Shown here: in pieces, positions 15,200-20,017 of the stretch
Numbering within the stretch: position 1 is the first letter of the stretch
Layout of the letters: every line of letters starts with the position of its first letter
From: a virus
Strand: one strand, 5' to 3'
Virus record (IMG/VR): IMGVR_UViG_3300017971_000882
Location: 1-20,017 of that record
Length of the DNA stretch: 20,017 bases
Position numbers and translations under genes: made by a program
Notes under the pieces: model-generated
The model's input: the letters and a program-made list of their open reading frames with translations, nothing else
The model's database searches: none
What the model was told of the DNA's origin: nothing

Positions 15200-15796
15200 T
15201 TACTCCTCGTTACCGTTAATGTAAGCCTCTGCTTCATCCATTGCTTCGCCGGCATCTTCACCGGTAGCAATAACGCGAGGCTGTGGATTTGCCTGTAAGA
15301 AAGCATTTAAAGCCGTAAGCTCTGTGCCCTCATCGCAAGCAATTGAAAGTTTATCAACGCCATACTTAGCAACGGCGTTTGCATCAACCATTTCTGAATG
15401 GTCAAACGCACCAATAACAGGAGATAAGCGGCCAACAATTGCCTCTTTCTCTGCAAGTGATTTTTGCATATCTGCAAGCGAAGGAGCTGCATCTTGTGCA
15501 GTTTTAAGGTTCGCATTTTCTTGCTTAAGCGTTGCAATTTCTTTTTGCAACTCAGCAACAACGCCGGCATCCATACCCTCACCTTTTTTCTCATCAGCTT
15601 TAGCCTTTTCCTCATCTTCGGCTTTTTTCTTGGCTGCTTCTTCTTCCTCGGCATCCTTAGCTGATTTCATATCCTTAACGGTGCTCATGCACTCATCAAG
15701 ACCTTTTTTCATATCACCAACCATAGTGGCCAGTTTTTCAAGAGTCATATCGCCGTCTTCGGCTTTTTTACCCTTATCTTCGTTTTCGCCTGCCAT
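15200..15796 (-). CDS. Nested in-frame scaffold protein from internal start
   Basis: An in-frame ATG at 15796 (Met187 of the full protein) is preceded by GAGGAG with a 6-base spacer, a better ribosome binding site than that of many annotated starts in this window. It begins exactly at the junction between the protease domain and the coiled-coil part, giving a 198-residue product starting MAGENEDKGKKAEDGD. Nested scaffold genes sharing the protease's stop are known in lambda (C/Nu3) and relatives. The same RNA may therefore supply many scaffold copies and few protease-scaffold copies. Expression is inferred from sequence only. Confidence 0.6.
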   Translation of the reverse strand: MAGENEDKGKKAEDGDMTLEKLATMVGDMKKGLDECMSTVKDMKSAKDAEEEEAAKKKAEDEEKAKADEKKGEGMDAGVVAELQKEIATLKQENANLKTAQDAAPSLADMQKSLAEKEAIVGRLSPVIGAFDHSEMVDANAVAKYGVDKLSIACDEGTELTALNAFLQANPQPRVIATGEDAGEAMDEAEAYINGNEE

Positions 15797-16354
15797 TGCA
15801 AACTCCTCGCTATCAATTGAAAAAGTTAACTTTTCTGAGCTATCCAAAACTGCAACGTCTTTTCCCATTCTACCGGTTCCAACAGATGCGATATGGTTAC
15901 CTCTTATTCGCCTTTGTACTACATCATAGGTCACCCCGTCAAATTCGCCACTTTCTAGCTCATACTCACAACGGTAACCGCACGACAAATCACGCTTCCC
16001 GGATTCAACCGATTCGGTCAAATTATCCGAAAATAATTTAATGTTGGCGCGTAAGTAAGGGTATTCAAAATAAACGTCCTCACCTATAACACCCTCAACG
16101 CCCTTTTCCTCAGGTGAGGTTCCAAACGCTTCACCAAGCATTGTATGCTCATCAATCCACGGCACAAGCTTAAATGAATCAATTGCATCTTTGCTGCTTA
16201 ATTCCTCAGCTGGACGCAATACATTGTAAAGCTTGTCTGGCTCAAGCCCTGGTAAGCCAATTGACTTTCCCAGATACTGGTAAACCCCAACCTTACTAAT
16301 GGGGTTCCCTTTAATTTCTACCCAGCCGTTGCCGTCTAACTCTCTTGCACTCAT
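15200..16354 (-). CDS. Head maturation protease fused to scaffold (DUF2213)
   Basis: The protein has 384 residues; its ATG overlaps the Mu F-like gene's stop as ATGA (16351-16354). Residues 1-175 are the DUF2213 domain, thought to be a prohead protease. Visible candidates for catalysis are His70 (PWIDEHTMLG) and Ser124 (KRDLSCGYRCEY), the His/Ser spacing expected for serine herpes-type prohead proteases, plus the conserved RGNHIASVGTGRMG (151-164). Residues 187-384 are a highly charged Lys/Glu/Ala coiled-coil scaffold, with a Lys/Glu/Ala-rich run around 230-260 and a heptad-like ELQKEIATLKQENANLKT at about 268-285. A separate scaffold can be made from an internal start. The protease function is inferred from family knowledge. 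Confidence 0.85.
   Translation of the reverse strand: MSARELDGNGWVEIKGNPISKVGVYQYLGKSIGLPGLEPDKLYNVLRPAEELSSKDAIDSFKLVPWIDEHTMLGEAFGTSPEEKGVEGVIGEDVYFEYPYLRANIKLFSDNLTESVESGKRDLSCGYRCEYELESGEFDGVTYDVVQRRIRGNHIASVGTGRMGKDVAVLDSSEKLTFSIDSEEFAMAGENEDKGKKAEDGDMTLEKLATMVGDMKKGLDECMSTVKDMKSAKDAEEEEAAKKKAEDEEKAKADEKKGEGMDAGVVAELQKEIATLKQENANLKTAQDAAPSLADMQKSLAEKEAIVGRLSPVIGAFDHSEMVDANAVAKYGVDKLSIACDEGTELTALNAFLQANPQPRVIATGEDAGEAMDEAEAYINGNEE
15803..15808 (-). promoter_or_regulatory. Internal ribosome binding site for nested scaffold
   Basis: GAGGAG in the coding sense lies 6 bases before the in-frame ATG at 15796. It encodes Glu183-Glu184, so it could be chance codon use, but the exact spacing and its coincidence with the domain boundary argue for function. 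Confidence 0.6.
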
Positions 16355-17265
16355 GATTGCTCACCGTTTTTAAATTCTATTACCGGGCGCATTCTGCATT
16401 TGCAGTTTATGGCCTGTCCAGGTATTCCACGCTCGCCGGTCTTTTCGTCTATTATAGGCAAATCATCGAAACTGAAAACCCCACCGTTCAAACCAGCAGG
16501 CCAACGCTGCTTGTGATGCTCCCTTGGTTCTTTGCCGCCACCACTATGCAACCACTCAAACTTGGTAATGCCTACCGATTCCATTCGGGCCTTATTTATT
16601 GAGTTATAAGCTTTCCTTGTTTGATCTAGCGCAATGTTTTTGGCACGGTTTTTTGCAATGCGCTTTTGGCTTTTAAGTGATTCGTTGATAGTTGGTATTA
16701 ATTCAGCCAAGCCGCTGCCTGTCATAATGCTACGGTCAACAGCCCCAACAACTTGGTCGAAATAGCGGCTTTGTATGCTGGTAATCAATTTTACGTTTGC
16801 ATTAAATGCAGACTTGGCAACTTCCTTTACATCGGCGCTCACGATGCTGGCATCAATAGTTAGGCCGCCGCTTAATTCCTTGAGGCTGGTTTCCAATGCT
16901 TTTTGGCTAACGTTGTCGATACCACCCAACATTTGCTTGGCAATATCCTTGCTCTCATCGTTAAAGATTTTGGCCCACTTGGCCATGAGCTTGTTGGTAA
17001 TGATTCTTGATTGGCTGGCAATGCTGCTGTCCATGGCCGCATCCTCAACAAAATATTCTTTGCTGGTTTCAGAGGTATAAAGTTGCTTAAGCTGTTTCTC
17101 AACATCGGCAGCCATCTTATTGATTAGCTTGTCAATTTCCCGTGTATAACGAGCAGCAATTGCGGCGTTATATTCTAGCGGTGTTCCACGTGAAACACTG
17201 TTAGGCTTAAACTTTTCAGCCCAAGCTTTGCGGCCTGGGCTTTGTGGAAACGGGTTGCGTGCCAT
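16351..17265 (-). CDS. Head morphogenesis protein, Mu F-like
   Basis: The protein has 304 residues; its ATG overlaps the portal stop as TAATG (17263-17267). The N-terminal two-thirds are helical. The C-terminal domain (about 190-296) has the Mu F-like signature: RAKNIALDQTRKAYNSINKA, GITKFEWLHSGGGKEPREHH, then RGIPGQAINCKCRMRPVIEF with the PGxxxNCxC motif (Cys288, Cys290). Such minor head proteins bind the portal and are ejected or retained in few copies; the SPP1 gp7 relative binds the portal. The position right after the portal is standard. The trailing residues KNGEQS are unremarkable. Confidence 0.9.
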   Translation of the reverse strand: MARNPFPQSPGRKAWAEKFKPNSVSRGTPLEYNAAIAARYTREIDKLINKMAADVEKQLKQLYTSETSKEYFVEDAAMDSSIASQSRIITNKLMAKWAKIFNDESKDIAKQMLGGIDNVSQKALETSLKELSGGLTIDASIVSADVKEVAKSAFNANVKLITSIQSRYFDQVVGAVDRSIMTGSGLAELIPTINESLKSQKRIAKNRAKNIALDQTRKAYNSINKARMESVGITKFEWLHSGGGKEPREHHKQRWPAGLNGGVFSFDDLPIIDEKTGERGIPGQAINCKCRMRPVIEFKNGEQS

Positions 17266-19286
17266 TAGTCTTTCGCGCTACTCCATTGCTCATTTTCCAA
17301 GATGATTGGTTCATCCGGTATTTCAATTTGGCCAATGCGTGCAATGTCAGCCTCAGTCGGTGCGTACTTTAAACTGATGTGCGGCAAGTAGGCTTCATGC
17401 CTTGGAACTCCACCAACCAGTTTTATTTCGTTGTGGCGTTGGTGCAAATCAGGTGAATCAAGCATAACCACAATGGCCCTATACTCACCCTCACCCATCA
17501 CACGGATTTCACCGGTAGGCTTGGCAATCAATGGCTGGTAAGCATAGCTTGGCTCCGGTATATCCTCGCTGCTGTACATCAATGTTACGTGCAACTTATC
17601 TGGCTCGATAAGGTCATCAATGCCGGCCTTGGCTGCTGCAGCAAAATACTTGGCTGCATCACGGGAACGAGGCTTGACGCTTACATAGCCATTACGGATT
17701 GCATCCATAGCAAATATCCAATCTTGCTGGTCATTGGCTTTGGCTTGCTGCTTTTCTGCCTCGTTTAAATCAATTTCATTTTCCTCAACTTCACTTTCGT
17801 TTTCTTCCTCGGGCACGCCGTCAATCTCGATATCGTTATACCCAGAATCATCATCCTCAGAAATACGCTTGCGCGAATCATAACCATCAATACTGCCAGC
17901 ATTAACCAAGTTGAGGTCAGTGCGGCTTTTGCTTTCATTGAGCTCAGCAATTTCTTTTTCAGAAAGCACTTTAAGCGAGTTCCAGTTTATTTCGACCTCA
18001 GCGTTAATGCCCTCAGACTTTAAAAGCAGCTCATAATGGCGCTCTAAAACTGGCTCATATTCATCGCTTTGTATGCTTTCCAGTTCCTCGTGGTAGCTGT
18101 CCTCCTCGTACTCACCGGTCGCATTAAAGCCCTTGGGTGAGGTGCCAAGCAACTTGGTTGCCGGCGTGCGTGCAATAGCTGATACCAATTGATATTGGGT
18201 CATAACGGTAACGTCAAAGTCAGTGAGCGTGGTGTCGAACTGCTCCATCTTTTCGTTTTCACCCAATACTTTTACGCCATAGTTATCACGGATTGCGGCC
18301 CACTCTTGCATTTTTTCGGTGAATTCTTGCTCATTGGCAATGGCTGCCTCCATATCAACATAAAGGCCGGTTGTGCGTTTGGTCATGGCCAATTGCGGCC
18401 CCTCGTTTGCTGTACGCTCAGCTGCATATACACGCTCGTAAATTAGCTGGGTAAGCGACAAACCGCCATAAGTGTACGTTGGCTTTAAAACGTCTGGCAC
18501 TTCGTCATAACGTGCGATTACAAGGTGTGAGCGGTGGTAACGCTTGCCACTGATGCGCCAATACGTTGGCTCGTAAAACTCAGGGCTTCCAGGGTTGCCG
18601 CTTGCCTCCATGCTCAGCTCTGGGGTTATCCAGTACGGGTCAACCTGAATCATGCCCTTGTATGAACCCTTTTTAACGCCATCAATATTAAACGGCTTTT
18701 GGTAATACTGTTGGTCAGTGCTTTCAACATTAAAAATCATAATGCGAATGCCAAAGATGCGATTGTGGCGGCCATACTCGACAAGGTTCTTTTTGACCTT
18801 GTATTTCTTATCAAGCTTTCTGATTGTGGCACGCTGCTCTGGGGTAAGCGTTTGGCCATCATTGGTTGTAAGTTCCCAGCCTTTGCGTGCAGCGTCTTTT
18901 GGTGATTGGCTGCAGGCTTTATTTACCAGCCAGTTTTGAGCAAGTATTGCGCACGCCTGATAACCAATAAAGCTTTGTGCGCCATACCAGCAAAAGATTG
19001 AATCGGGTAATTGGTTGCTAAGGGTAAAAGCGGCTTTAAGGCTGCCACCATCCATTGCAAAACCTTTGGCCTCCTCAACGCCATCGGTGGCAACGTTTAC
19101 CACCTTGCTTGGCATTTTAGGAACAACCTGTATGGCGTTTTTTTCAAGCCATGATTTAGGGTTTCCAATTCTGAAAAATGTGTCGGTGCTAAAATAGCCG
19201 TTACCGGTTTTATTTATTAGCTCATCATCTTTGCTTTTATCTTCAACCGGTGCCGGCAAAGCCTTATTTTTTTTGCGACCAAACAT
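17265..19286 (-). CDS. Portal protein (DUF1073) with C-terminal Acb1-like 2H phosphoesterase domain
   Basis: The protein has 673 residues; its ATG directly abuts the terminase stop. Residues about 35-480 are the DUF1073 portal: SIFCWYGAQSFIGYQACAIL (96-115), VEYGRHNRIFGIRIMIF, the clip/stem region with RTTGLYVDMEAA and LVSAIARTPATKLLGTSPKGFNATGEYEE. Residues about 480-515 form an acidic Glu/Asn-rich linker. Residues about 525-673 show two HxT/S motifs, H566-V-T568 (KLHVTLMY) and H636-I-S638 (LPHISLKY), 70 residues apart, the signature of 2H phosphoesterases. Tyr534, Glu664 and Trp668 sit at the same distances from these histidines as substrate-contacting residues I recall in T4 Acb1 (Y12, E141, W147), give or take two residues. 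T4 Acb1 destroys cyclic nucleotides made by CBASS defence. Pfam/InterPro, as I recall, already groups DUF1073 and this domain under Acb1-like names. Twelve portal copies form the DNA gate; anti-defence activity is inferred. Confidence 0.9.
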   Translation of the reverse strand: MFGRKKNKALPAPVEDKSKDDELINKTGNGYFSTDTFFRIGNPKSWLEKNAIQVVPKMPSKVVNVATDGVEEAKGFAMDGGSLKAAFTLSNQLPDSIFCWYGAQSFIGYQACAILAQNWLVNKACSQSPKDAARKGWELTTNDGQTLTPEQRATIRKLDKKYKVKKNLVEYGRHNRIFGIRIMIFNVESTDQQYYQKPFNIDGVKKGSYKGMIQVDPYWITPELSMEASGNPGSPEFYEPTYWRISGKRYHRSHLVIARYDEVPDVLKPTYTYGGLSLTQLIYERVYAAERTANEGPQLAMTKRTTGLYVDMEAAIANEQEFTEKMQEWAAIRDNYGVKVLGENEKMEQFDTTLTDFDVTVMTQYQLVSAIARTPATKLLGTSPKGFNATGEYEEDSYHEELESIQSDEYEPVLERHYELLLKSEGINAEVEINWNSLKVLSEKEIAELNESKSRTDLNLVNAGSIDGYDSRKRISEDDDSGYNDIEIDGVPEEENESEVEENEIDLNEAEKQQAKANDQQDWIFAMDAIRNGYVSVKPRSRDAAKYFAAAAKAGIDDLIEPDKLHVTLMYSSEDIPEPSYAYQPLIAKPTGEIRVMGEGEYRAIVVMLDSPDLHQRHNEIKLVGGVPRHEAYLPHISLKYAPTEADIARIGQIEIPDEPIILENEQWSSAKD

Positions 19287-20017
19287 TTATTTTTTCCCCA
19301 TATCAAAAAAGCCTCGCGACTTACGCTCACCAATTAACATATCGTCTATTGCATCCATCCAAGTATCCCAAACGTCATCATGCTCATGGGAATCATCGGC
19401 GCTAAAATCAGCCACTTCTTTCAATGCAATAGGCAGCCAATCCGTTGAACCTGCCTCACTTCCGTTAGAATATACCACTTTAAGCAGTTTTTCCGTAACT
19501 TCGCCCTCAACAGTGCGATACATAGCCGGTATGAAAACTTGGCCCATTTTAAGTTGAGGTATCACATTATTACAACGCACTGGCTTTTTATCGCCTGGGC
19601 CTCGTGGTATTTCCTTAAGTGGTATGACCCGCTTTTTCTTAAGAGTAGTGATTAAACCTTGGCCGGCCTGCTTATCCTCGATGGCCATGTAACGTACACG
19701 CGACCGCTCCGTGCCACCTGTCCACCTATCCCAAACCTCAATGGCCTTTTTAAGCAATTCCTCGGGGTCCCACTTTCCACGCTCAACGTCAATGATGTAC
19801 ATGTTGCCATCAACACCAAGGCCAGCAAGCGTAAACACGGTGAAATCATTCATATCACCGACCTTGCCGCTATTGGTATCAACGTAAATGGCACGCCACT
19901 GCAGCTCAGGCAAAAACTCGTAACGCTGGAACCAAGCAGTATCAACCATGTTACCGGTAAGCTCAGTTGGCTTTTGCTGGTATTGGCTCAAAAACGTGTA
20001 ATCGTCCTTTTCCCATA
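19287..20017 (-). CDS. terL: Terminase large subunit, C-terminal nuclease part (5' cut by window edge)
   Basis: The frame is open to the right edge of the window (read-in residues WEKDDYTFLSQYQQK), so the ATPase domain lies outside it; about 242 residues are visible. They hold an RNase H/RuvC-like nuclease: first acidic residue in RAIYVDTNSG (with GDMNDFTVFTLAG following), second in RYMAIEDKQAGQGLI, and third in the HEHDDVWDTWMDAI cluster near the end. The PLKEIPRGPGDKKPVRCNNV loop and the GQVFIPAM strand are also typical of the Terminase_6C type. The protein cuts concatemeric DNA and drives it into the prohead through the portal, whose gene follows with no gap. No packaging-site call can be made. 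Confidence 0.92.
   Translation of the reverse strand, partial: WEKDDYTFLSQYQQKPTELTGNMVDTAWFQRYEFLPELQWRAIYVDTNSGKVGDMNDFTVFTLAGLGVDGNMYIIDVERGKWDPEELLKKAIEVWDRWTGGTERSRVRYMAIEDKQAGQGLITTLKKKRVIPLKEIPRGPGDKKPVRCNNVIPQLKMGQVFIPAMYRTVEGEVTEKLLKVVYSNGSEAGSTDWLPIALKEVADFSADDSHEHDDVWDTWMDAIDDMLIGERKSRGFFDMGKK

Follow-up and report, generated by a model that had tools for sequence, protein, structure and literature searches.

The portal gene and its neighbours

The window, by which we mean the whole stretch of DNA that was analysed, is 20,017 nucleotides long and derives from an IMG/VR record (IMGVR_UViG_3300017971_000882), a 20-kb virus fragment. All features described here are encoded on the minus strand. 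Portals are viral head proteins which form the passage for DNA in and out. The portal gene of the window (17265..19286) codes for a protein of 673 amino acids and is flanked by terminase and MuF genes. On one side lies the C-terminal part of the terminase large subunit (19287..19991, PF17289), on the other side the portal gene adjoins a MuF-like head morphogenesis gene (16351..17265; PF04233, E 7e-10). The next gene encodes a DUF2213 protein (15200..16354; PF09979, E 2e-41), which is probably a prohead protease or scaffold and occupies the position of the head scaffold gene of phage Pam3.

The initial annotation described the protein as a DUF1073 portal, and this assignment is confirmed. Residues 109-456 match Phage_portal_3/DUF1073 (PF06381) with an E value of 7e-91 in the profile search. 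The body (residues 95-492), taken from a model of the complete portal, was compared by VIA-align to solved portals, which resulted in Z scores of 32 for the Pa193 portal (9b41) and 31 for the E217 portal (8fvh); the score against the Pam3 portal is 24. The portal is that of a myophage.

The body is followed by a linker (residues 479-522; 17721..17852) which is acidic, as had been noted before, and probably disordered. Among its 44 residues are 18 D/E and 2 K/R, and pLDDT values in the whole-portal model drop below 50 at residues 491-507 and 518-531. Beyond the linker lies a domain of the 2H phosphodiesterase type (residues ~530-673; 17268..17699).

The C-terminal domain belongs to the Acb1 family

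The portal C-terminus is an Acb1-family 2H domain. It matches the Pfam model PF23474, 'Anti-CBASS protein Acb1', with 71.1 bits (E 1e-19) at a cut-off of 27; Acb1 of phage T4 (57B) is the top match of that model with 202.7 bits. The match is far above chance, because all 61 sequences in the alignment of related domains match PF23474 as well and a fold search ranks Acb1 structures first. Among the sequences of solved structures, Acb1 of phage FBB1 (7t26) is the best match in a sequence search (E 4e-6). An AlphaFold2 model of the domain, built with the alignment of the 61 related domains, reached a pLDDT of 91 and a pTM of 0.84, and superimposes on 7t26 over 135 residues at 2.3 A (Z 15.7). The top folds found by Foldseek and VIA-align are FBB1 Acb1 and a phosphodiesterase of Burkholderia phage BCSR5 (Z 15.4-15.7, 133-139 residues, 2.2-2.6 A), and the Acb1 structures 7t26, 7t27, 9q2g and 9q2y lead the ranking with Z scores of 15.4-15.7. 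Other 2H enzymes, namely plant cyclic phosphodiesterase (CPDase), LigT and Usb1, rank lower with Z scores of at most 11.7. Within the whole-portal model, residues 531-672 of the domain match 7t26 with a Z score of 16.7.

An Acb1-like 2H domain had been proposed at this place, together with a structure prediction and a profile search as checks. Both were run and agree with the proposal. The guess that databases might already name the family Acb1 was also right, as the Pfam entry documents. PHROGs assigns the same stretch of the portal to family 755, which is annotated as 'RNA ligase'; according to phage records this label is also carried by free 57B-type genes of T4-like phages. The RNA-type 2H model 2_5_RNA_ligase2 (PF13563) stays below its cut-off of 27; against it the whole protein scores 14.6 bits and the domain 20 bits.

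Catalytic and contact residues

The two motifs that were reported from the sequence, H566-x-T and H636-x-S at a distance of 70 residues, are present and align with those of T4 Acb1, where the distance is 69. The first one, H566-V-T568 (17583..17591), corresponds to H44-x-T46 and the second one, H636-I-S638 (17373..17381), to H113-x-T115. Of the 79 portal-borne domains, 78 retain both histidine motifs. The sole copy lacking the first histidine (L075, R-V-T) is a natural variant and probably inactive. Among close pairs of relatives dN/dS of the domain is mostly 0.02-0.2, values that come from the relatives as the divergence between the window and its sister L004 is too large for an estimate of dS. 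The domain is thus under strong purifying selection in the family.

Three further residues had been matched to contact residues of T4 Acb1, and one of these matches holds. In the family alignment Tyr534 (17685..17687) occupies the position of T4 Tyr12, which is involved in base stacking. Glu664 and Trp668, which had been equated with Glu141 and Trp147, are found opposite Asp136 and Lys140, respectively. The family-invariant glutamate is Glu666 (17289..17291; invariant column E147 of alignment A4) at the T4 Glu138 position, and the family alignment places Ser669 (17280..17282) at the position of Glu141, the adenine N6 contact. The portal chain stops short of the Trp147 position and its C-terminal lid is short, with the register at Glu141 and Trp147 taken from the sequence alignment alone and these reported T4 contacts varying in the family. 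Thus 53 of the 79 portal-borne domains have a Glu at the 141 position and 54 of 79 a Trp at the 147 position. The Glu is kept in Vibrio phage PP270 and in L025 and L026, two of the nearest portal-borne relatives, and is absent in the portal of the window and in its 69%-identical sister L004.

As two of the three named contacts were wrong, a T4-like recognition of adenine should not be assumed for this protein. Judged from its sequence, base specificity is uncertain and may differ from that of T4 Acb1, because a Ser stands at the Glu141 position and Trp147 and the full lid are missing.

Portal-Acb1 fusions are widespread

The fusion is widespread and not peculiar to the window. The same layout is found in cyanophage Pam3 (8hds), Synechococcus phage Ssp-JY39, Vibrio phage PP270 and the Rhizobium phages RHEph04 and RHph_I65. 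The C-terminus of the Pam3 portal matches PF23474 with 105 bits, and a pattern scan revealed 251 confirmed IMG/VR relatives of the Pam3-type domain; the best 80 of these 251 are all located on ORFs which also match the portal model. Another alignment (A1) was too diverse for scanning. The 397 genomes of one alphaproteobacterial order contain six matches above the cut-off. Four of them lie on ORFs with 608-676 amino acids, the length of a portal fusion, and two on short free-standing ORFs. Known Acb1 proteins were called relatively rare (PMC11722364); many carriers are concealed among genes named 'portal'.

Two observations on individual genomes are added here. The Roseovarius genome OX638333 contains two loci of the portal-Acb1 type (L124 and L125) about 47 kb apart, which have the same identity figures and are possibly tandem prophages. 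In the jumbo phages Serratia BF (L166), Pectobacterium CBB (L168) and Salmonella Munch (L165) free Acb1 genes are situated near genes for Sir2-like or NAD-dependent deacetylases, with a nicotinamide phosphoribosyl transferase (BF) and a Nudix protein (CBB) also nearby. This neighbourhood may represent an anti-defence cluster directed against NAD and nucleotide signals.

The domain is exchangeable cargo

Rather than being part of the core portal, the domain behaves as cargo that can be exchanged. The portals of Vibrio phages PP270 and XM1 are 96% identical in amino acid sequence, and that of XM1, for which a complete virion structure exists, ends at residue 412 and has no domain. A second pair, with 86% identical portals, consists of Vibrio phage 1.054.O and the IMG/VR contig L026; where L026 has about 475 bp that code for the domain, 1.054.O has 4 bp. 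Portals work without the domain, because such near-identical twin phages exist. A structural or DNA-packaging role, in which enzymatic activity would be irrelevant and which the portal location and head-interior orientation could suggest, is therefore highly improbable given these twins, the finished XM1 virion with its 412-residue portal, and near-invariant catalytic residues that a purely structural part does not need; the same holds for the packaging role raised in the initial annotation.

A tree of the portal bodies requires at least 5-6 changes, gains or losses, of the domain trait. All portal domains fall on one side of a branch in 0% of the bootstrap trees, and a single origin of all portal fusions is not rejected by the AU test (p 0.12). 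For the pair L064/L085 the bodies show a dS of 0.26 and the domains a dS of 1.0. The same is seen when L064 is compared to L085, L087, L108 and L109, with nearly identical bodies (dS ~0.25) and strongly diverged domains (dS ~1.0), and by these sequences the domain looks as if it had been swapped alone.

Other effectors also occupy the slot. In E217, from a neighbouring branch, it holds a PF18823 inorganic pyrophosphatase (InPase). On the E217 portal ORF (L169:1483-3780) this domain covers residues 635-753, beyond residue 528 where the cryo-EM model ends. Two cargo domains in tandem on one ORF were found twice, as portal-Acb1-ADP-ribosyltransferase (ADPrib_exo_Tox; L089:3576-6515) and as portal-Acb1-PBECR3 nuclease (L113:1830-4223).

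Head-interior carriers

The domain is also found inside DarA homologues of two P1-like genomes, which combine PF18788 (DarA_N) with PF23474. These are a Pantoea phage-plasmid (NZ_CP034366; L011:5943-9059) and an IMG/VR sequence (L029:2210-5605). The Acb1 insert is flanked by parts that match residues 1-469 and 556-638 of P1 DarA. The carrier had at one time been taken as DdrB due to its gene position, which was dropped since comparison with P1 pointed to DarA. No Acb1 match was obtained in the first 50 kb of P1, the part that contains darA together with the dar genes. P1 DarA itself thus has no such domain, and DarA-Acb1 is a candidate for an injected anti-CBASS enzyme. DarA of P1 is a head protein that is co-ejected with the DNA (PMC12810830).

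The C-terminus of the E217 portal forms a barrel that projects into the head and is ordered only with DNA present (PMC10329688). For the portal in the Pam3 virion (8hds) 621 residues are deposited and 442 modelled; the fold match extends up to residue 433, and the Acb1 domain of 8hds gave no match in the fold search, which suggests that the domain is mobile or absent in virions.

A mechanism of release from the portal was not found, since the linker has no enrichment of start signals and no known cleavage site. In-frame starts preceded by a strong Shine-Dalgarno sequence occur in the linker (0.0007 per codon) no more often than in the portal body (0.0006). Production of free Acb1 from an internal start was therefore rejected; in the window, codon 527 is the lone in-frame ATG close to the domain and has no Shine-Dalgarno sequence.

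Proposed function

The most probable explanation is that the domain is an accessory anti-CBASS-type phosphodiesterase, catalytically intact as judged by its motifs, which is carried on a flexible acidic linker of the portal. Both 3'3'-cGAMP and cAAA are cleaved by recombinant homologues of Acb1, and T4 without acb1 is impaired more than 300-fold under CBASS (PMC9117128). By analogy with this biochemistry (PMC9117128) we infer an action on CBASS signals. The domain would most likely hydrolyse small cyclic di- or trinucleotides that serve as alarm signals of the CBASS type, by a metal-free attack of the ribose 2'-OH with the help of the two HxT/S motifs, although homology within the 2H superfamily does not by itself fix the substrate. 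If the portal resembles that of E217, the domain should hang at its head-interior end, in about 12 copies per head. It could act late in infection, on unassembled new portals or in permeable proheads; alternatively it could act after entry from the head, and in that case it would first have to be released from the portal. In the papers searched we found no biochemical assay of an Acb1 that is fused to a portal. CD-NTase (SMODS) genes occur in 6 of 33 genomes with portal-Acb1 prophages and in 38 of 395 background genomes, a difference that is not significant (one-sided p 0.11) and comes from mixed orders.

Two sub-versions of this explanation differ in the time of action, and each of them, taken alone, is conceivable while falling short of an even chance. 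According to the first one, which is the published idea of polyvalent proteins, the domain is packaged with the portal, set free, e.g. by proteolytic cleavage, and enters the cell with the DNA, which would clear CBASS or cyclic-nucleotide signals from the start of infection. This agrees with the proposal of Iyer et al. (2017, 2022) for 2H-portal and 2H-MuF fusions, with the same domain in the ejected head protein DarA, with the head-interior portal C-terminus of E217, with the incomplete Pam3 portal model and with ART, PBECR3 and InPase as companion domains. A role connected with the head interior is favoured by the DarA fusions and by the further effectors in the slot, and the recurrent use of carriers inside the head favours action after entry. 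However, the portal remains in the capsid, so that a cleavage would be necessary, and the failure to find a release step speaks against this version. In addition, 12 copies are few, and T4 Acb1 works as a normal protein that is synthesized in the course of infection.

According to the second sub-version, which follows the initial annotation, the domain is active on new portals or proheads at the time when assembly triggers CBASS, with its dose tied to structural expression. The portal gene is one of the late structural genes, and in T4 the activity of Acb1 sets in at about 15 min, together with the late onset of CBASS (PMC9117128). Small cyclic nucleotides could presumably reach head-interior domains in proheads. 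A free gene would serve equally well, however, as it does in T4, and the repeated head-interior partners (portal, DarA and, according to Iyer et al., MuF) would be left unexplained.

It appears rather unlikely that the domain processes RNA ends, as an RNase or by 2',3'-cyclic phosphodiesterase activity, be it at the time of entry or with packaged RNA or RNA of the host as substrate. The 2H fold is common to LigT, CPDase and Usb1, the PHROG label points to RNA, RNase action is listed by Iyer et al. 2017 (PMC5512222), and the Glu141 position is lost in this protein. On the other hand, Acb1 structures clearly outrank the RNA-type 2H enzymes, and PF23474 exceeds its cut-off whereas the RNA-ligase 2H model stays below its own.

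Beyond the portal of the window, the anti-CBASS reading can be widened to the proposal that portal-borne and DarA-borne Acb1 together are virion-delivered anti-CBASS enzymes, stored in the head, freed from their carrier and injected with the genome. We regard this general form as less likely than not. If it were true, the phage would destroy the alarm signal before any protein synthesis of its own.

Comparison with known systems

The idea of portal fusions is already published and the window is a further case. For 2H domains fused to portal and MuF domains, the relevant passages of Iyer et al. 2017 (PMC5512222) propose RNase action or the destruction of immune nucleotides, and those of Iyer et al. 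2022 (PMC9503650) take such fusions as a hint that the domain is packaged, injected and counteracts SMODS signalling. The window shares with these polyvalent head proteins an effector-type 2H domain fused to a portal, for which an anti-SMODS function and packaging in the head were proposed. In contrast to our analysis, these passages do not name the family of the fused domain as Acb1 and give neither twins with and without the domain nor an activity. We found no paper that joins DUF1073 and CBASS, and by title and abstract none of the papers containing both 'Acb1' and 'portal protein' has such a fusion as its subject.

With T4 Acb1 (57B, PF23474) the portal domain has in common the profile, the 2H fold, the HxT...HxT/S tetrad and the Tyr12 and invariant Glu138 positions. 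In contrast to T4 Acb1 it is fused to a portal and not free, has a Ser at the Glu141 position, no Trp147 and a short C-terminal lid, and its activity is predicted. The closest solved portal bodies are those of E217 and Pa193 (Pbunavirus), with 52-55% identity over about 394 residues. E217 shares the presence of an extra C-terminal enzymatic domain but has the PF18823 InPase in place of Acb1. Pam3, an isolated phage with a virion structure (8hds), shares the C-terminal Acb1 itself and belongs to a different, larger branch of portal-borne Acb1, which is mainly from alphaproteobacterial phages. The DarA-Acb1 proteins also bear the domain on a head-interior virion protein; here the carrier is DarA, which is ejected in P1, and not the portal.

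What is added to the published picture is that the fused domain is specifically Acb1, that it comes and goes on near-identical portals, that its slot is common to other effectors and that DarA is a carrier, too; two contact residues of the initial annotation are corrected. The DarA fusions represent an independent case in a protein that is known to be ejected. With the pairs PP270/XM1 and L026/1.054.O and the solved virion of Pam3, the published idea of packaging and injection becomes directly testable.
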